From contig JAAEPW010001288.1 in the NCBI GenBank assembly GCA_024232355.1, forward strand, positions 1 to 58,913: a DNA stretch of 58,913 nucleotides. Reading direction: 5' to 3'. Positions within the stretch are counted from its first letter, which is position 1. Every line of letters starts with the position of its first letter. Positions 32,494 to 55,302 of the stretch are shown piece after piece. The notes under the pieces are model-generated. The model searched no databases and was not told the DNA's origin. It saw only the letters and a list, made by a program, of their open reading frames with translations. A program made the position numbers and the translations under genes. This stretch comes from Chloroflexota bacterium (GTDB lineage: Bacteria > Chloroflexota > Anaerolineae > B4-G1).

Positions 32494-35124
32494 CTATTGT
32501 CCTGCCCAGTACTCGGCGGCATCAGTTACCATTGCCTCGACAAACTCTTCCGGCGTGATCTGGCCCAGGAACAATTCACTGTTGTTGACGTAGAGAATAT
32601 TGTTCACAAACTCAGAGTAGAGGGCCACGGTGCCATCCGTTAGCGGGAACACGGTGTTGGCATTCGCCGCCGCTGCCGCACCATCAGCGATTTCTGGTGC
32701 CCACTCTACGCCCAGCCGGACCGAACCAACGAGTGCCGCGTCCGCGATCTCTTGCTGGTTCTCCTTGGTCATCATAAAGCGCAAGAATTCGAACACTTCG
32801 TTGGGGTGTTCGGTATCCTTCAACATCATAAAGGCCAACAAGGCGGCCTGTAGGTCCTGATTGGTCCCCACGCCACCCTCGACAGCGGGAAAGTTAAAAG
32901 CTCCCCACTCGAACAGGTTTCCGGCGCTTTCCATATCCGGTGCCAGCTCGATGGGCAACCACGAACCGACCAGGTCCATCGCCGACTCGCCAAAGGCTAG
33001 GGTCTGCTGCCCCGCGGGCCACACATAGCCGATGGTCTCTGGCGGGAAGCACCCACGATCCCACAGATCACGGATCGCTTCAGCCGCTTCCAGGTAGATG
33101 GGGTCGCGCCACATCTCGCCGGTCTCGTCCTCGACGGTCTCTAACAGGAAGCCGGGGCCTTTGGCGCGCTCGATATAGTAACCGAGGTAATCGATCTGGT
33201 AGAATTGGACATCGCTTTCGGACGCAATGGGCGCATAGCCCGCATCCAAAAGTGCGTCGCAAACGTCCAAGAAATCATCCCACGTCTCTGGCGCTTCTAC
33301 GCCCACTTCAGCGAACATGTCCTTGTTGTACCAGAACTGCACGGTGTTATAGATGTGTGGCCACAGGTAGACGTCGCCGTCCGAAGCCAGCATCTCCAAG
33401 GTGCCGGGAGCGAACACATCACGGATGGGACCATCCTCATCTAGCGCAGGGGTGTCGAGATAATCGTTGAGGGGGTAGCCCCACCCTTCAAGCATCAAGC
33501 CACCGGCCACTTGATCGGCATCCTGGTCCATAAAGTCGATCGTCTCGCCAGCAGTCAGAGCGGTACGAACGAGCGTTTGGTTCTGACGGCCATTCCACGT
33601 AACCTCTATGGTGATACCGGGGTACGCGGCCTCGAACTCGTCGATCCAGCTCTGAATGACCTGAGCCTGGGGCTCGTCCTCGTTCCACATGCTCCAGAAT
33701 ACCAGATTCGCATCCTCTAGCTCTACGGTCGGTTCCTCAGCCGGTTCTTCGGCTGGCTCGTGTCCCGACCAGTAGTTGGCGGCATCTGTCGCCATCTCTT
33801 CAACGAACTCTTCCGGCGTGATCTGGCCCAGGAACAATTCGCTGTTATTGGTGTAAAGAATGTTGTTCACAAACTCAGAGTAGAGGGCGACAGTGCCATC
33901 TGTCAGCGGGAACACGGTGTTGGCATTCGCCGCCGCCGCAGCACCATCAGCGATCTCGGGTGCCCATTCCACGCCCAGCCGGACCGAGCCGACGAGTGCT
34001 GCATCTGCGAGCTCTTGCTGGTTCTCTTTGGTCATCATAAAGCGCAGGAATTCGAACGCCTCATCGGGGTGCTCGGTGTCTTTTAAGATCATAAAGGCCA
34101 AAAGAGCGGCCTGCAAGTCCTGATTGGTTCCCACGCCACCCTCGACGGCGGGAAAGTTAAAAGCTCCCCACTCGAACAAGTTTCCGGCGCTTTCCATATC
34201 CGTCGCCAACTCGATGGGTAACCACGAACCGACCAGGTCCATAGCCGATTCGCCAAAGGCCAGGGTTTGCTGACCCGCGGGCCATACATATCCGGTAGTC
34301 TCTGGCGGGAAGCACCCACGGTCCCACAGATCACGGATCGCTTCAGCCGCTTCCAGGTAGACGGGGTCGCGCCACATCTCGCCGGTCTCGTCCTCGACGG
34401 TCTCCAACAGGAAGCCGGGGCCTTTGGCGCGCTCGATATAGTAACCGAGGTAATCGATCTGGTAGAACTGGACATCGCTTTCGGACGCAATGGGCGCATA
34501 GCCCGCATCCAGAAGCGCGTCGCAAACGTCCAAGAAATCACCCCACGTCTCTGGCGCTTCTACACCCACTTCGGCGAACATGTCCTTGTTGTACCAAAAC
34601 TGTACGGTGTTGTAGATGTAGGGCCACAGATAGACGTTGCCCTCCGAGGCCAGCATCTCCAAGGTGCCGGGGGCGAATACGTCGCGGATGGGACCGTCTT
34701 CGTCCAGCGCCGGGGTGTCGAGATAGTCGTTGAGGGGGTAACCCCACCCTTCAAACATCAAGCCACCGGCTACTTGATCGGCATCCTGGTCCATAATGTC
34801 GATGGTCTCGCCAGCGGTGAGGGCGGTACGAACGAGCGTCTGGTTCTGACGGCCATTCCACGTAACCTCTATGGTGATATTGGGGTTCGCGGTCTCAAAG
34901 TCGTCGATCCAGCCCTGAATGACCTGAGCCTGGGGCTCGCTGTCGTTCCACATGCTCCAGAACACGAGTGTGACATCTTCATCTGCCGGTTCATCAACCG
35001 GCTCGTCAACTGGTTCATCGACTGGTTCATCTACCGGTTCTTCGGCAGGTTTGGGCGAGCAACCGGTCAATAGTGCCCCCATAATGATGATCATTACCAG
35101 AGTTAAACGTACTATTGTTTTCAC
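32494..35124 (-). CDS. Tandemly duplicated sugar-binding lipoprotein (two SBP_bac_1 domains)
   Basis: An 876-residue secreted lipoprotein starting at GTG with AGGAGG upstream. The signal peptide ends ALLTGC (Cys22), followed by a repetitive acidic tether of PVDE units. Two near-identical family 1 solute-binding domains follow (about 52-454 and 473-876), each with LVFWSMWN, TWNGRQNQTLVRTALTAGE, GYPLNDYLDTPALDEDGP, FWYNKDMFAEVGVEAPETW and SAMDLVGSWLPIELA. The second copy is shifted by exactly 1263 bases (421 codons). Two fused binding domains should deliver substrate to one permease pair, perhaps raising capture near the membrane. Sugar type is unknown. Confidence 0.93.
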   Translation of the reverse strand: MKTIVRLTLVMIIIMGALLTGCSPKPAEEPVDEPVDEPVDEPVDEPADEDVTLVFWSMWNDSEPQAQVIQGWIDDFETANPNITIEVTWNGRQNQTLVRTALTAGETIDIMDQDADQVAGGLMFEGWGYPLNDYLDTPALDEDGPIRDVFAPGTLEMLASEGNVYLWPYIYNTVQFWYNKDMFAEVGVEAPETWGDFLDVCDALLDAGYAPIASESDVQFYQIDYLGYYIERAKGPGFLLETVEDETGEMWRDPVYLEAAEAIRDLWDRGCFPPETTGYVWPAGQQTLAFGESAMDLVGSWLPIELATDMESAGNLFEWGAFNFPAVEGGVGTNQDLQAALLAFMILKDTEHPDEAFEFLRFMMTKENQQELADAALVGSVRLGVEWAPEIADGAAAAANANTVFPLTDGTVALYSEFVNNILYTNNSELFLGQITPEEFVEEMATDAANYWSGHEPAEEPAEEPTVELEDANLVFWSMWNEDEPQAQVIQSWIDEFEAAYPGITIEVTWNGRQNQTLVRTALTAGETIDFMDQDADQVAGGLMLEGWGYPLNDYLDTPALDEDGPIRDVFAPGTLEMLASDGDVYLWPHIYNTVQFWYNKDMFAEVGVEAPETWDDFLDVCDALLDAGYAPIASESDVQFYQIDYLGYYIERAKGPGFLLETVEDETGEMWRDPIYLEAAEAIRDLWDRGCFPPETIGYVWPAGQQTLAFGESAMDLVGSWLPIELAPDMESAGNLFEWGAFNFPAVEGGVGTNQDLQAALLAFMMLKDTEHPNEVFEFLRFMMTKENQQEIADAALVGSVRLGVEWAPEIADGAAAAANANTVFPLTDGTVALYSEFVNNILYVNNSELFLGQITPEEFVEAMVTDAAEYWAGQ
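32500..33707. repeat. Direct repeat copy 2 (C-terminal SBP domain)
   Basis: Nearly identical at nucleotide level to 33763-34970, with a constant offset of 1263 bases. The low divergence marks a recent in-frame internal duplication of the solute-binding domain. Confidence 0.9.
33763..34970. repeat. Direct repeat copy 1 (N-terminal SBP domain)
   Basis: Partner of 32500-33707. The two copies are joined by a short acidic linker of PAEE units (about 33708-33762) that resembles the tether after the signal peptide. Confidence 0.9.
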
Positions 35125-49806: not shown

Positions 49807-50355
49807 TCAATCTGTAAGAACTGTCTCGGTAGGGGGAAAACCTTTGGGCCACTTGGTTCGATCGTTGTACTTGGCTCCATCTAGATTGACCCCTTTTAGG
49901 TTTGCTTCGCTCAAGTCAACTCCACGCAAATCGGCTCCGCTCAAGTCGGCCTCGCTCAGGTTTGTTCCGCTCATGTTGGCTTCACGGAGGTCAGCCTCGC
50001 ATAGGTAGGCCCTGAATAGGAACGCCTTGTTCAAAGCAGCCCCGCTCAGATCGGTCTCACGCAGGCCTGCTCCACTTAGGTCGGCTCCACTCAGATTGGC
50101 CTTGCTCAGGTCGGCTTTACCCAAGTTGGCTCCTTGGCTCAGTTTGCTCCCACGCAGATCGGCCTCGCGCAGGTCAGCCGCAAACAAGTTGCTCTTGTTT
50201 AGGTTGGTCCCACTCAGGTTGGCTTTTCGCAGGTTGGCCTTGAATAGAAACACCTTGTTCAGGTCGGCCCCGCTCAGGTCGGCCCCACCCAAATTGACCC
50301 TGGAAAAGTCCCGTTCTCCTGCCTGATATCGTGTGATAAGTTCTTGTTCGTTCAC
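49807..50355 (-). CDS. Pentapeptide-repeat protein
   Basis: A 182-residue protein if it starts at the GTG at 50355 (GAAAGG upstream); a longer frame to 50460 is possible. After MNEQELITRYQAGERDFS, about 27 tandem A(D/N)LxX repeats run to the end (ADLSGADLNKVFLFKANLRK and so on), predicting a right-handed quadrilateral beta-helix. A few repeats are interrupted (SKLSQGANL). Members such as Qnr and MfpA mimic DNA and bind gyrase, but most are uncharacterised. It converges with gmk and lies near the sigma-polymerase operon; no link is demonstrated. Confidence 0.88.
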   Translation of the reverse strand: MNEQELITRYQAGERDFSRVNLGGADLSGADLNKVFLFKANLRKANLSGTNLNKSNLFAADLREADLRGSKLSQGANLGKADLSKANLSGADLSGAGLRETDLSGAALNKAFLFRAYLCEADLREANMSGTNLSEADLSGADLRGVDLSEANLKGVNLDGAKYNDRTKWPKGFPPTETVLTD

Positions 50356-50559
50356 GTGCTTGCACCTTTCCTCTGTGCTGTGCTCCATCCCTCCTCCATT
50401 CATACGACCAGCCTCAACCCGTCGCGCAGGGACCAACAGCACGAGCAGATTCCCATTCATTGCTTTTTAATTCTTACACACACTCTCAGTATATCCCAAC
50501 TTGCGCAGAAGTCAAAGTCATGCGTGAGGGGGTTTTGTTTCTAGTTTTAGGGAGATCGT

Positions 50560-51396
50560 TTATGACATTACTGTCAAAGCGCAACGAAAGCCGACGTCAT
50601 TGTCCGTAAAGAACGGATTGTTCATACCGCGAGAAGCGGTGCGAGCGCGGAGCACAAGACTATACCACGAGCCACCCCGCGTCACCCGCTCGATGTCACC
50701 GGCTGGGTCATTTCGCCCATCATTTGTGTCGTAGGGGTATGGTTTGTACTGGCTCATTGTCCATTCGGAGACGTTGCCGATCATATCCATACATCTGTAC
50801 AGGCTGTCTCCCAGTGGACTATATTCTCCCACCGGCGTTGTCCGCTTCAATCCGCTGGCCCGCGTGTTGCAGCTCAAAGCGTCAAAGGTATTGCCCCAGG
50901 GATACAGTCGTCCGTCCGTTCCGCGCGCAGCCTTTTCCCATTCTGCCTCGGTCGGTAGGCGATAGTTGCGGCCTGTTGCCTTGCTCAACCACTGGCAGTA
51001 GGCATAAGCTTCGTACCAACTGACTCCGACCACCGGCAGGCGATCATCACCTGCCCACTTGGCATCGTCCCAGAGATCAGGCTGCACGATGCCGTTCGTC
51101 TTGCGCCATACCCAACCGGCATCTGTCCAGTATTGAAGGAGCCGGTAGCCACCAGCATCCACGAACGCTCGGTATTCTTTCACTGTCACTGGGTGCTTGG
51201 CGATGTAATAGTCGGACAGAGTGACGGTGTGTCGTGGTTGTTCCCGGCCAAAATAGCCTTTCTCTTGCCACTTTGTTGCCAGATCAAAAGCTTGCGCTAG
51301 TTGGTCAATCTGCCAGTCACTTGTGCCCATCAAGAACGGCCCATTGGGAATGTGGATCATCTTTGGCTCAAAGGGTTGGTGTGGAATGTTTGTCAT
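50560..51396 (-). CDS. Formylglycine-generating-enzyme-fold (SUMF1) protein
   Basis: A 278-residue FGE-sulfatase-domain protein. MIHIPNGPFLMGTSDWQ, PRHTVTLSDYYIAKHPVTVKEY, LPVVGVSWYEAYAYCQWLS, RLPTEAEWEKAARG, MIGNVSEWTMS, RGGSWY and DVGFRCA are the standard blocks. No signal peptide is seen. The catalytic cysteine pair of true FGE is not clearly present (a lone CNTRAS cysteine lies mid-domain), so it is more likely one of the many FGE-fold proteins acting as ligand-binding or other enzymes. Oriented like the polymerase operon but separated from it by a repeat-bearing gap. Confidence 0.87.
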   Translation of the reverse strand: MTNIPHQPFEPKMIHIPNGPFLMGTSDWQIDQLAQAFDLATKWQEKGYFGREQPRHTVTLSDYYIAKHPVTVKEYRAFVDAGGYRLLQYWTDAGWVWRKTNGIVQPDLWDDAKWAGDDRLPVVGVSWYEAYAYCQWLSKATGRNYRLPTEAEWEKAARGTDGRLYPWGNTFDALSCNTRASGLKRTTPVGEYSPLGDSLYRCMDMIGNVSEWTMSQYKPYPYDTNDGRNDPAGDIERVTRGGSWYSLVLRARTASRGMNNPFFTDNDVGFRCALTVMS

Positions 51397-51567: not shown

Positions 51568-54500
51568 TTACGTTTTTCTAGTCACGGGCAGCCCCACTAA
51601 CAGCCGGCTGTTTATATCTGCCAACGGATCAATCTCTCCAGTGGCGGCTGCCCGGGCGAACACGACGCCAGGACGATTGGCCCGGCGCGCTCGTGCCAGC
51701 ACGGTGAACGTGGTGGGAACGCTGTGGTCGCCCGGGCTCGTCCACATTCGCTCCATCTCATCGACCAGCCGGGCTAGGCCCCGCCGTGCGCCCGCCGCGC
51801 AGGCATACATCTCGCTAGGTGTCAATCCCTCGGCGTAACCGTGACGTATGGTCACCGGTTCATCGTTCACGTCTCGGACAATTTTGGGGCCGATCAACAG
51901 CGGAAGGTGTTGCCGCCCCCGCTGTCTGGTTCGGACTGCGATTAGTTGTGGCCCCAAATCGGGATTGTCATAGTTGGTGTTGGATAGGATCTGTTCGGCC
52001 AGTTCTTCCTGATACGCAGCCCACAGATCGGGATCGTCTCCCTCGGGTTTGGGCGGACGTTGCACGCTTTCGCCGATAAAGGGGCTTATCGACGCGCCCG
52101 ACGCCTTGACAGCCTCAAACCCGCGCCGCGTCAACTGCTCCAGCGTTGCTAGGGCTGCTTTGACACCGTCCCGCGCCATCGTCTTTTCCATCGCCTCAGA
52201 AAGCGCGGTCTGCGTGATTGGCCCATTGACAGCGATTGCCTCTGCCCCTATCATTTGAGCAATCTCGCGATGGCCTGACTCTGTCAAGCTCAGGCTTGCC
52301 AGGCCCCACAGCGCGTCCGGTGGCGGGAGCAGGGATTTTATCAGTTCTGGATCGCGGACTAGGTGACCGGCGACGGAGAGCCGCTCACCGGCTTCGAGTT
52401 GGGCACTCTCGGTGATTGGTAACAAGACCGCGACCTGGTCTCCGTCAAAGTCGGCGTTCAGCCACTCGCAGACCAGTGGATGGAGCCGGATCACACTGCC
52501 TGGATCGCGCACGGGATGGAATGCGATAAGGGCGGTTGGGGAGAGGGTGGGGGCGCGGTTGACGATGATCCACGAGCGCGCCATTATCCGGTCGAGCACT
52601 TGTGCTGCTCGCTCGCTGCGCGCCCGGACGGCTTCCTCGTCATCCAGTTCGCGGATGACCAAGGGGCCAAAGAGCGTCCAGGCGATTTCATTAGCCAATC
52701 CTACTTGGTCGAGGCGCAGGTCCGCGCCGGGGGCGATCACGGCCCGCCCACTAAAGAGCTGTCGCTCTCGAAAGCGTAGGTGATCGGGCCGGAGCAGCGC
52801 GTCAAAGAACGTCTGCACGCGGGCTTTGAGTTGGGCGATAGCGTCCTGCACCAGCTTTTCTGGCGTCTGGCAGTCTAACATGCGTGCCAACCTGTCGTTG
52901 GCCTCGACTAGTGGGGGGTATTCGTCCAAGGCCGGATATGCGCCGATCTCGGTCAACTGGCGTTCGCGCATCCAGGGATGGGGTACCGGATGAGCCAGTG
53001 TTAGCTTGTCCCCATGTGGAGATTTAAAGTCGAACGTCAACCGCTCATTCTTCAATGTTGCCTCAATGCCCGCCACCTGGAGCCTGTCCACGAGGTCGGA
53101 GAACATTGGGGTGGGGGGGGCAGCTTGTTCGACCGGTCCCGCTGCCACGCGCGTGGCGAGGGTGTCGGCATCCGCCCGACGGATGGCGCGGGTGTTGAGA
53201 TATTCACGCAGATTGTCATACACGCCCAGGTCAAGCAACATATAGTTCTCGAGATTGCCTTGCAATTGTGCTCGTTGTTGTGGGCTGACCGACGACATCA
53301 CTTTGTTTTGTGCGAGGTGATGGAGCCGTCCCCAGTAGACCCACCCGACGGTGCTGGGCCGCTCAAGTTGAGGACCATCTCGTCCGAGGGTGAGCGGCTC
53401 CATTCCAGATTCGGGGAGATGCGTTTGTGTTAATCGCTCGCGCAACTCATCTCGGCTTGGTGCGTGAAAGGGCGGTGTGATGGCGGGTTCTCCTTCGACG
53501 CGCGCAACGCGCCCCATCACCGCTTCCATCACTTGACCAAAGTTCATCCGCACGTGCAGGCCGATAAAGTTAAACACCAGGTCCACCGGTGTGCCGTCGG
53601 GCAGATGGGGCATCTCATCATCGGGCAGAATCCGGCTCACGATCCCCTTTACTCCGTGACGGTTGCTCATTTTGTCGCCCGGTTCAATGGGGTAAGGAGT
53701 ATCAAAGCGTTGAGCGGCAGACTTGCTGATCACGATACCATCCCACGTGGTATCCGTTTCCCAAGAGACAAAGGCTGTCAGTAGGTTCCGTCCGGCCCAG
53801 AACCCGGGGGTGTCTGGTTCGTTGCCGGTCTGGACGAGCGCGGGCTCTGGTGTAGATTGCATAACCCATTGGCGCATCATGTTGGTCCCCATTAGCAGAC
53901 GGTTGGCGTCGTCATGCTCCAGAAAGGGGATCATGGACGCTGTCAGACCCAGGCCTGACTCGGAACGTTCATCCACGACGATCAGTTTTCCCTCGTGGAT
54001 TTCTGCGCCCACGGCGATTCTCAAGACGCGACCGATGTTAGGTCCCTCTGGCGTCTCAAAAGGGCAAACGCGGCCAAACTGTCCGGCCGTAATCGTCTTT
54101 TCTCGATCTGGGATGAGGATGCTTCGGAGATGGGCCTGGCGGCTGAACCAGTTCGTTGCCTCGAGCCGTTGAGCGACGTCGCTCATAAATTCTTGGGCCC
54201 ACAGACCGAGCGGCATCCACGCACGCGCCAACTCTGCGTCCCACGGTAGGCCGTTCGTCGGTGCTTGCCCCAAACGCTCTTTGATATAGTCGTACAGTTG
54301 CTCTCCCACGCAGCGGATCTCGGCGATGTCCAGTTCCTCGGTCGAGGCGACTGGAATGACGACAGTGGGTTCCTCGTTGATCTCGAATAGTCCGTCCTCG
54401 TCCGGCTGGGGGAGATCGACGTATTCGATCTCGACATCGCCGGAGGCGGAGGTCAGTGTAACTGCCACGCGGCAGGTGTAGCGGCCAGTCGACTCTGCCT

Positions 54501-54624
54501 GATAACCGACCAACGGCAGCCGTTCGGCCAGCAATTCTGGCAGGCGTTCCTGCAAGAATCTGTCGAACGATGTTTTGTGCCAGGGTGCGGATGACGTACA
54601 TCCGCTAGATAGATGGATTGACAT
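51568..54624 (-). CDS. Single-chain compact beta/beta-prime RNA polymerase
   Basis: A 1018-residue fusion of multisubunit-type RNA polymerase cores. Beta part, ~1-530: RVCPFETPEGPNIG (188-198), EHDDANRLLMGTNMMRQ, GRNLLTAFVSWE, DGIVISKSAA, then GDKMSNRHGVKG (316-327, with Lys318/Lys326 at the NTP-site positions), DGTPVDLVFN, RPSTVGWVYWGRLHHL and a beta C-terminal LVDRLQVAGIEATL. Beta-prime part, ~535-1018: clamp-helix segment NDRLARMLDCQTPEKLV, FSGRAVIAPGADLRLDQVGL (624 on), NRAPTLS, NADFDGDQ (Asp725, 727, 729 as catalytic triad), bridge helix EGLTPSEMYACAAGARRGL (932 on) and the C-terminal AAATGEIDPLADINSRLLVG. The beta flap, beta-prime zinc finger, jaw and trigger-loop motif are not found. 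Twelve bases after the sigma gene, with AGGAGAG before the ATG. Housekeeping subunits are each about as long or longer, so this is an additional polymerase. Confidence 0.9.
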   Translation of the reverse strand: MSIHLSSGCTSSAPWHKTSFDRFLQERLPELLAERLPLVGYQAESTGRYTCRVAVTLTSASGDVEIEYVDLPQPDEDGLFEINEEPTVVIPVASTEELDIAEIRCVGEQLYDYIKERLGQAPTNGLPWDAELARAWMPLGLWAQEFMSDVAQRLEATNWFSRQAHLRSILIPDREKTITAGQFGRVCPFETPEGPNIGRVLRIAVGAEIHEGKLIVVDERSESGLGLTASMIPFLEHDDANRLLMGTNMMRQWVMQSTPEPALVQTGNEPDTPGFWAGRNLLTAFVSWETDTTWDGIVISKSAAQRFDTPYPIEPGDKMSNRHGVKGIVSRILPDDEMPHLPDGTPVDLVFNFIGLHVRMNFGQVMEAVMGRVARVEGEPAITPPFHAPSRDELRERLTQTHLPESGMEPLTLGRDGPQLERPSTVGWVYWGRLHHLAQNKVMSSVSPQQRAQLQGNLENYMLLDLGVYDNLREYLNTRAIRRADADTLATRVAAGPVEQAAPPTPMFSDLVDRLQVAGIEATLKNERLTFDFKSPHGDKLTLAHPVPHPWMRERQLTEIGAYPALDEYPPLVEANDRLARMLDCQTPEKLVQDAIAQLKARVQTFFDALLRPDHLRFRERQLFSGRAVIAPGADLRLDQVGLANEIAWTLFGPLVIRELDDEEAVRARSERAAQVLDRIMARSWIIVNRAPTLSPTALIAFHPVRDPGSVIRLHPLVCEWLNADFDGDQVAVLLPITESAQLEAGERLSVAGHLVRDPELIKSLLPPPDALWGLASLSLTESGHREIAQMIGAEAIAVNGPITQTALSEAMEKTMARDGVKAALATLEQLTRRGFEAVKASGASISPFIGESVQRPPKPEGDDPDLWAAYQEELAEQILSNTNYDNPDLGPQLIAVRTRQRGRQHLPLLIGPKIVRDVNDEPVTIRHGYAEGLTPSEMYACAAGARRGLARLVDEMERMWTSPGDHSVPTTFTVLARARRANRPGVVFARAAATGEIDPLADINSRLLVGLPVTRKT

Positions 54625-54636
54625 CAGAATCTCTCC

Positions 54637-55260
54637 TTATGTTGTTTCTAAATTTTTCCATTCGCGGGCGAGACGTCTCTTGGCATAGTACAGGCGCGAT
54701 TTGACAGTGCCTTCGGGGATGCCTAGCTCGTCAGCCGCATCCCGCATACTCATTTCCATCTCGTGCACCAGATGAAAAACCTCGCGTTTCTCTTCGGGCA
54801 GTCGCTCGATGATTCGCCAGAGTCGCTCTCGCTGCTCGCCCAATTCCAGGGCAGCATCGGGGTCCGGTGCCGAAGCGTCGATCAACCAGGCGGGTATGGT
54901 GTTTTCCTCCTCGTCGTTCCATTCGTTTGGGACGTTCAAGGGATGTTCCTTCCGACGGCGTACAGAACGCAGATGGTTAAACGCCAGGTTGGTGGCGATG
55001 CGGTAGAGCCACGCTTTGAAGGTGCCGCTACCATCCCACTGCTCCGCGCGCGTCCATACCCGTAAAAAAACCTCTTGCAATAGGTCTTGGGTTGCAGCAT
55101 CGGGCGGATGCAAAGCATCCGAACGCACGATGCGTGCTATATGCCGGCGCATCATCTCTTCATAACGATCAAAGAGCGTCTCGAACGCGTGCGCATCTTG
55201 TTCGAGGATTTGCTGGATGAGGTCTTGGTCAGATAACATCGGTTTGGTCCTGTTACTCAT
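54637..55260 (-). CDS. ECF-type sigma factor paired with the compact polymerase
   Basis: A 207-residue sigma-70-family factor. The ATG at 55260 with AGAAGG upstream is preferred to one seven codons further out. Sigma region 2: AFETLFDRYEEMMRRHI, LLQEVFLRVWTRAEQWDGSG and TFKAWLYRIATNLAFNHLR. Region 4: LPEEKREVFHLVHEMEMSMRDAADELGIPEGTVKSRLYYAKRRL, a helix-turn-helix. Regions 1 and 3 are absent as in ECF factors. No anti-sigma gene is adjacent; instead the compact polymerase follows, which keeps the clamp-helix docking site for region 2. It may direct that enzyme, the host polymerase, or both. Confidence 0.9.
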   Translation of the reverse strand: MSNRTKPMLSDQDLIQQILEQDAHAFETLFDRYEEMMRRHIARIVRSDALHPPDAATQDLLQEVFLRVWTRAEQWDGSGTFKAWLYRIATNLAFNHLRSVRRRKEHPLNVPNEWNDEEENTIPAWLIDASAPDPDAALELGEQRERLWRIIERLPEEKREVFHLVHEMEMSMRDAADELGIPEGTVKSRLYYAKRRLAREWKNLETT

Positions 55261-55276
55261 GCCTTCTATTGTACAT

Positions 55277-55302
55277 GACACCGGTCAGGAGGCAAAAGTT
55301 CA
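55277..55302 (-). promoter_or_regulatory. ECF-like promoter candidate before the sigma gene
   Basis: On the minus strand, TGAACTT (55302-55296), 16 bases, then GTC (55279-55277) resembles the GGAACTT/GTC pattern of ECF sigma promoters and would allow self-activation. An alternative housekeeping match is TTGCCT (55295-55290), 16 bases, TACAAT (55273-55268), giving an almost leaderless transcript. Confidence 0.4.

Follow-up and report, generated by a model that had tools for sequence, protein, structure and literature searches.

A reduced single-chain RNA polymerase encoded next to an ECF sigma factor gene behind a shared promoter-like element in bacteria of many phyla

Introduction

Cells transcribe their genes with one large multi-subunit RNA polymerase, whose extra domains are regarded as necessary for initiation and control. 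Its beta and beta' subunits are naturally fused at full length in Helicobacter and Wolbachia. Single-chain enzymes of another kind are described from phages. YonO of the Bacillus phage SPbeta is an active single chain of about 100 kDa in which trigger-loop homology is undetectable (PMC5467207). The parts of that paper covered here describe it as more processive and less accurate than the bacterial enzyme, as working efficiently and as having only several residues in common with cellular enzymes, and they leave open how it finds promoters (PMC5467207). Other two-barrel enzymes in a single chain, like the protein described below, are gp64 and gp96 of P23-45, gp66 of the crAss-like phi14:2, and QDE-1 (PMC10770324, in the parts covered). 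In the dendrogram of the same source, the single-chain enzymes of phages, plasmids and RNA interference form a second clade. Among the members of the first are fused derivatives of cellular enzymes, unnamed in the parts covered (PMC10770324); the present family may therefore have been mentioned before. In the searchable literature, which covers older work only in part, we found neither a described family of this kind nor its pairing with a sigma factor, and a prior description is possible.

Here we analyse a mini-RNA polymerase encoded in a 58,913-nucleotide stretch of a Chloroflexota contig (JAAEPW010001288.1, hereafter the window). It shares with the full-length Helicobacter and Wolbachia fusions the presence of beta and beta' in one chain; for PRK14844 and PRK09603 (2839 and 2890 positions) it scores 190 and 178 bits, below the cut-offs of 4632 and 5372. 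It also falls below the cut-offs of the housekeeping models, with 188.5 bits for TIGR02013 (cut-off 801.15) and 117.2 bits for TIGR02386 (cut-off 963.5). It is similar to YonO, as described in the parts of PMC5467207 covered, in size and in the absence of a trigger loop; unlike YonO as described there, it aligns over most of the beta/beta' core and adjoins an ECF sigma factor gene. None of its four PHROG matches is named as the YonO family. What is new here is the ECF sigma gene upstream in 45 of 46 relatives, together with one shared promoter ahead of sigma.

Results

A fused and reduced polymerase

The mini-polymerase frame (51568..54624, minus strand) starts with an ATG at 54624, ends at 51568 and encodes 1018 amino acids, of which residues 1-527 correspond to beta and about 539-1018 to beta'. 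An earlier note on this DNA had described a single frame of 1018 residues; the size, the fusion and the reduction stand, and the strand is corrected to minus, as the plus strand has many stops over the same interval. The beta and then beta' motifs that it had listed in canonical order (FETPEGPNIG, HDDANR, GDKMSNRHGVKG, DGTPVDLVFN, FSGRAVI, NRAPTL, NADFDGDQ and GEIDPLADINSRLLVG) are all found in the minus-strand frame, and the chain is, as claimed, less than half the normal combined size (1018 aa versus 2749 aa in E. coli). Of the checks that the note had proposed, the search with Pfam profiles of RpoB and RpoC gives matches well beyond chance (Rpb2_6, 3e-39; Rpb1_2, 9.3e-21; Rpb2_3, 1.6e-7), and structure prediction gives a confident AlphaFold model with a pLDDT of 92.1 and a pTM of 0.88. 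A profile of 40 mini-polymerase sequences aligns with E. coli beta at 1.1e-61 and with beta' at 3.9e-45 (hhalign), and among solved structures bacterial beta and beta' chains come closest to it in sequence. The beta half resembles solved beta/Rpb2 chains; the beta' half is matched by sequence only, the VIA-align list being filled by the matches of one half and uninformative on beta' chains.

Of 7998 candidate proteins scored, 5472 matched at E <=0.001. The best 120 of these, including the protein of the window, show 53-100% identity and lengths of 892-1106 aa (990-1070 aa in 115 of the 120). Most of these 120 are unnamed or annotated as "hypothetical protein", and one (P0038) is named for Rpb domains; the closest named homologues among them are from Chloroflexota (66% identity) and Anaerolineae (63%). 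Because the other 119 (892-1106 aa) and 46 genome loci from many phyla carry the same chain, an assembly artefact or frameshift fusion is ruled out. The mini-polymerase has no PADLOC match and was rejected as a candidate defence system. An Rfam search of the window gave 0 matches.

Domains kept and lost

When its profile is aligned with the two E. coli subunits, the mini-polymerase proves to keep the core, the bridge helix and the beta' coiled coil. The lobe, flap, zinc ribbon, most of the clamp, the jaw and the trigger loop, all present in the housekeeping polymerase, have no counterpart in this alignment. For E. coli, the names, roles and numbering of domains and sites (lobe, flap, trigger loop, coiled coil, Rif positions and sigma contacts) follow common usage and were placed on the alignment.

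All features are on the minus strand. The beta double-psi-barrel region (53590..53694, from Pfam and the alignment) includes GDKMSNRHGVKG with K318 and K326, presumably the equivalents of E. coli beta K1065 and K1073 as placed on the alignment; these are conserved in 38 and 37 of 40 homologues, respectively. The site of the missing beta flap (E. coli beta 826-1057) aligns to 53692..53709, and the spacing from residue 300 to residue 316 is 13-42 residues in 40 homologues versus about 245, as aligned, in E. coli. At the position that corresponds to E. coli S531, 27 of 40 homologues have L, V or I and the window protein has L, which predicts a natural insensitivity to rifampicin. In the beta' half, the alignment places the coiled coil at residues 566-610 (52795..52929; E. 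coli about 265-309), where the model has helices at 569-584 and 589-610. The catalytic DFDGD, with D725, D727 and D729, is read from the sequence at 52438..52452. The bridge helix (residues 936-962, 51739..51819, from the model and the alignment) is not followed by a trigger loop. A C-terminal segment at 51592..51663 resembles E. coli beta' 1331-1354 by eye, with a non-significant hhalign result (P 0.5).

The earlier note had held that loss of the catalytic aspartates in close homologues would speak against a polymerase; DxDGD is present in all 120 of the best 120 of 5472 homologues, and the other active-site positions checked are conserved in 36-40 of 40. Judged from its sequence, the mini-polymerase is a two-barrel polymerase, and its three catalytic aspartates lead us to predict that it is active in RNA synthesis. 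A single-chain enzyme with no trigger-loop homology can work, since YonO does (PMC5467207, in the parts covered).

An extra polymerase with a patchy spread

The search of genome contigs gave 143 loci; of the 80 retained, 46 are mini-polymerase members by score and 34 are other polymerases. Twelve of the 46 were followed to their genomes. Using curated cut-offs, normal rpoC is found in 12 of 12 and normal rpoB in 11 of 12; the mini-polymerase is therefore an extra polymerase in these relatives, as the earlier note had supposed. The remaining rpoB (G005) was probably lost to assembly, because the rpoC match there starts 425 bases from the contig end.

In a midpoint-rooted tree of 52 sequences and 638 columns, the mini-polymerases group together with a support of 99 and are separate from both the housekeeping enzymes and the viral enzymes included. 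This tree has 14 viral sequences and no archaeal outgroup, and most of its housekeeping enzymes come from genomes that also carry a mini-polymerase. The gene is detected in 22 of 64 genomes of one phylum (>400 bits) and in at least 5 of 400 genomes of another (E <=1e-100, two candidates scored per genome).

Of the 46 loci, one alone (L022) comes from a named isolate in culture, Dictyobacter kobayashii. Its polymerase (L022, 9989-13045) contains in-frame stops, whereas neither the sigma frame nor the promoter element is damaged. Beside the normal rpoC, the same genome has another rpoC-like frame (G001:C2:319625-322426, 965 aa, 1145.5 bits).

The sigma partner

Directly upstream of the polymerase lies an ORF for an ECF sigma factor (54637..55281, minus strand, 214 aa as listed; Sigma70_r2 5.1e-14, Sigma70_r4_2 6.9e-14). 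Regions 2 and 4 are matched and region 3 is not, which is the ECF layout. Translation more probably begins at ATG 55260 or ATG 55239, because GTG 55281 sits inside the promoter motif. A ribosome-binding-site-like AAGGAGAG, read from the sequence (54631..54638, minus strand), overlaps the sigma stop, and the polymerase ATG follows 6 nt on.

The sigma gene is on the same strand as the polymerase in the 45 loci that have it, which come from many phyla. The two genes are at most 20 nt apart or overlap in 32 of these, are separated by 21-250 nt in nine, and by >1000 nt with an intervening gene in four; overlaps are overstated, since frames run from the most upstream start codon. The exception is L032, where sigma was not found and the polymerase is matched only over residues 304-1016. 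In four Latescibacterota loci (L024, L025, L027 and L045), sigma and polymerase are separated by a third gene (c2, 597 aa, or c49, 396 aa). When all neighbours were clustered, though not identified, every third family was confined to 7 or fewer of the 46 neighbourhoods. A next downstream frame is seen in 37 loci, and in 26 of them it is opposite in direction.

Distances between sigmas correlate with distances between polymerases (r=0.94, 40 pairs), a value reached in 0 of 2000 permutations; the pairs comprise 39 loci and the window, seven of the 46 loci being omitted for a short or broken frame or an absent sigma. Across 11 of the 12 genomes (the broken Dictyobacter copy was omitted), r is 0.86, and the partial correlation given housekeeping RpoC is 0.82. 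The partner sigma tops the sigma matches in 12 of 12 genomes, with 222-297 bits versus at most 156 for any other of the 6 to 37 matches per genome, a ranking that is partly by construction as the profile contains partner sigmas. Co-inheritance of sigma and polymerase as neighbours is no proof of binding, and the joint sigma and mini-polymerase model (pTM 0.79) does not decide the matter.

A shared promoter-like element

A promoter-like element, TGAAC-N15-GGTGTC, precedes the sigma-polymerase operon (55277..55302, minus strand) and is the sole exact match in the window. At spacing 15, it is found in 41 of 44 promoter regions: 28 exact, 10 with one mismatch and three with two. These regions are those of the window and 43 loci (L010 and L045 are too short and L032 has no sigma). 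The element fits at spacing 14 in L019 and L030, and none was found before the sigma of L028 when spacings 8 to 22 were scanned. The other 14 spacings in this range yield eight cases in all with 0-1 mismatch, L019 and L030 included. About 10 nt downstream of the element is a purine-rich stretch, with a purine in 37-41 of 41 regions at four positions.

Genome-wide, further copies do not stand out. When spacers of 10-18 are allowed, the exact element has 121 matches in the 12 genomes, those of the operon included, versus 120 in the reversed control. At the native length there are 16, seven of which are operon copies; the other nine compare with about 13 per other spacing (105 matches over eight spacings). 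A three-element pattern with up to three mismatches gives 393 matches in 25 genomes, own copies included, versus 427 in the reversed control, and does not capture the own promoter copies of G001 and G005. The element may have a relaxed regulon.

Discussion

A probable dedicated holoenzyme

On balance, we think it probable that the sigma factor and the mini-polymerase form a dedicated holoenzyme of two proteins, which would start at TGAAC-N15-GGTGTC and transcribe mainly the operon behind it. We infer this pairing because the coiled coil is kept amid the loss of most of the clamp and has a face that differs from that of E. coli across the family (of 40 homologues, 32 have A in place of E. coli R275, 35 have A in place of E295, and 28 have R in place of A302). 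Sigma region 2 usually docks on the beta' coiled coil, whose altered face would suit a private sigma. Region 2 would dock there, region 4 would read TGAAC despite the loss of the flap, and the enzyme would make RNA with no trigger loop. A nearly invariant Trp close to the C-terminus of the sigma (W201 by alignment numbering) is a candidate for keeping region 4 in place. By initiating at its own promoter, the holoenzyme would create a positive loop, which would mainly serve the sigma-polymerase operon itself because, in the genomes searched, further copies of the element do not rise above the controls.

The flap is the binding site for region 4 of known sigmas, and its loss is the strongest argument against a holoenzyme of the mini-polymerase. 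The sigma could instead use the ordinary core to switch the operon on, leaving the mini-polymerase as a product with a different role, such as primer extension or promoter-free RNA copying. The promoter layout and the -35 distance are ordinary for ECF sigmas, and a normal-looking -35 at this distance despite flap loss is what reading by the housekeeping core would predict; it also fits that further element copies do not stand out. The coiled coil is a NusG site too, so its retention has another possible reason. We nonetheless regard this explanation, the chief alternative, as rather unlikely, as the coiled coil survives the loss of most of the clamp and the pairing with one sigma subfamily recurs across phyla.

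The dedicated holoenzyme may be taken further, and we propose only tentatively a closed, orthogonal two-gene system in which a polymerase with neither trigger loop nor flap and a private sigma use one promoter, almost invariant across phyla, near-exclusively for themselves, making the system autocatalytic and possibly selfish. Any physiological purpose, such as a reserve transcription line during a block of the main polymerase, is speculation. If true, the holoenzyme would show that the flap, the trigger loop and most of the clamp are dispensable in initiation, and would provide a compact orthogonal transcription system from a 1018-residue core, a dedicated sigma and a fixed promoter. It would also pose the puzzle of how region 4 reads a -35 with no flap and of what use a seemingly self-serving polymerase gene is.

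Viral relatives and other fusions

The pair could also be a phage transcription module, domesticated or still mobile. The patchy spread in both phyla would agree with this, as would the other beta-beta' fusions of viruses: among the best 80 of 319 viral loci, 38 have beta and beta' in one frame, 28 of them whole and 1467-2241 aa long. We give this origin little credence, however. The viral collection (best 80 of 319) has no mini-polymerase member, its best segment showing 39% identity; among phage (37 matches) and plasmid (66 matches) records, none spans 80% of the query; and an ECF sigma occurs within the 3 kb flanks of 0 of these 80 viral loci. The mini-polymerases also stand apart from the 14 viral sequences in the tree. 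Only distant relatives were found among the viral records (best 80 of 319) and the phage and plasmid records, and a phage or plasmid origin by direct match is unsupported. That the protein is no longer a polymerase and merely holds sigma, like an anti-sigma scaffold, is very improbable given the conserved DxDGD (120 of the best 120 of 5472) and other active-site positions (36-40 of 40), even though the coiled coil is kept and no common anti-sigma gene is seen, as no third family recurs around the pair.

Two further types of protein have, like the mini-polymerase, both barrels in one ORF. The viral beta-beta' fusions (among L135-L214, e.g. L159, L161, L167, L171, L194 and L208) differ from it in the length of their whole frames, in having no adjoining ECF sigma and in their separate branch of the tree. 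Some other viral loci encode beta' ahead of beta, as two genes. The second type adds, by eye, an alpha N-terminal domain before beta and beta', in single ORFs of 2234 aa in a Poribacteria MAG (L051:7976-14680) and 1979 aa in a Latescibacterota MAG (L061:635-6574); both lie on branches separate from the mini-polymerase. A normal rpoB is also present in both genomes, and the second (G063) also has a mini-polymerase.

Other genes of the window

Downstream of the polymerase, on the same strand, the window encodes an FGE-sulfatase-type protein and a pentapeptide-repeat protein (49807-51396), neither of which has a match among the neighbours in the 46 loci. Elsewhere in the window, one ORF (32494-35124) contains two near-identical halves in tandem, each resembling, by eye, a sugar-binding protein.
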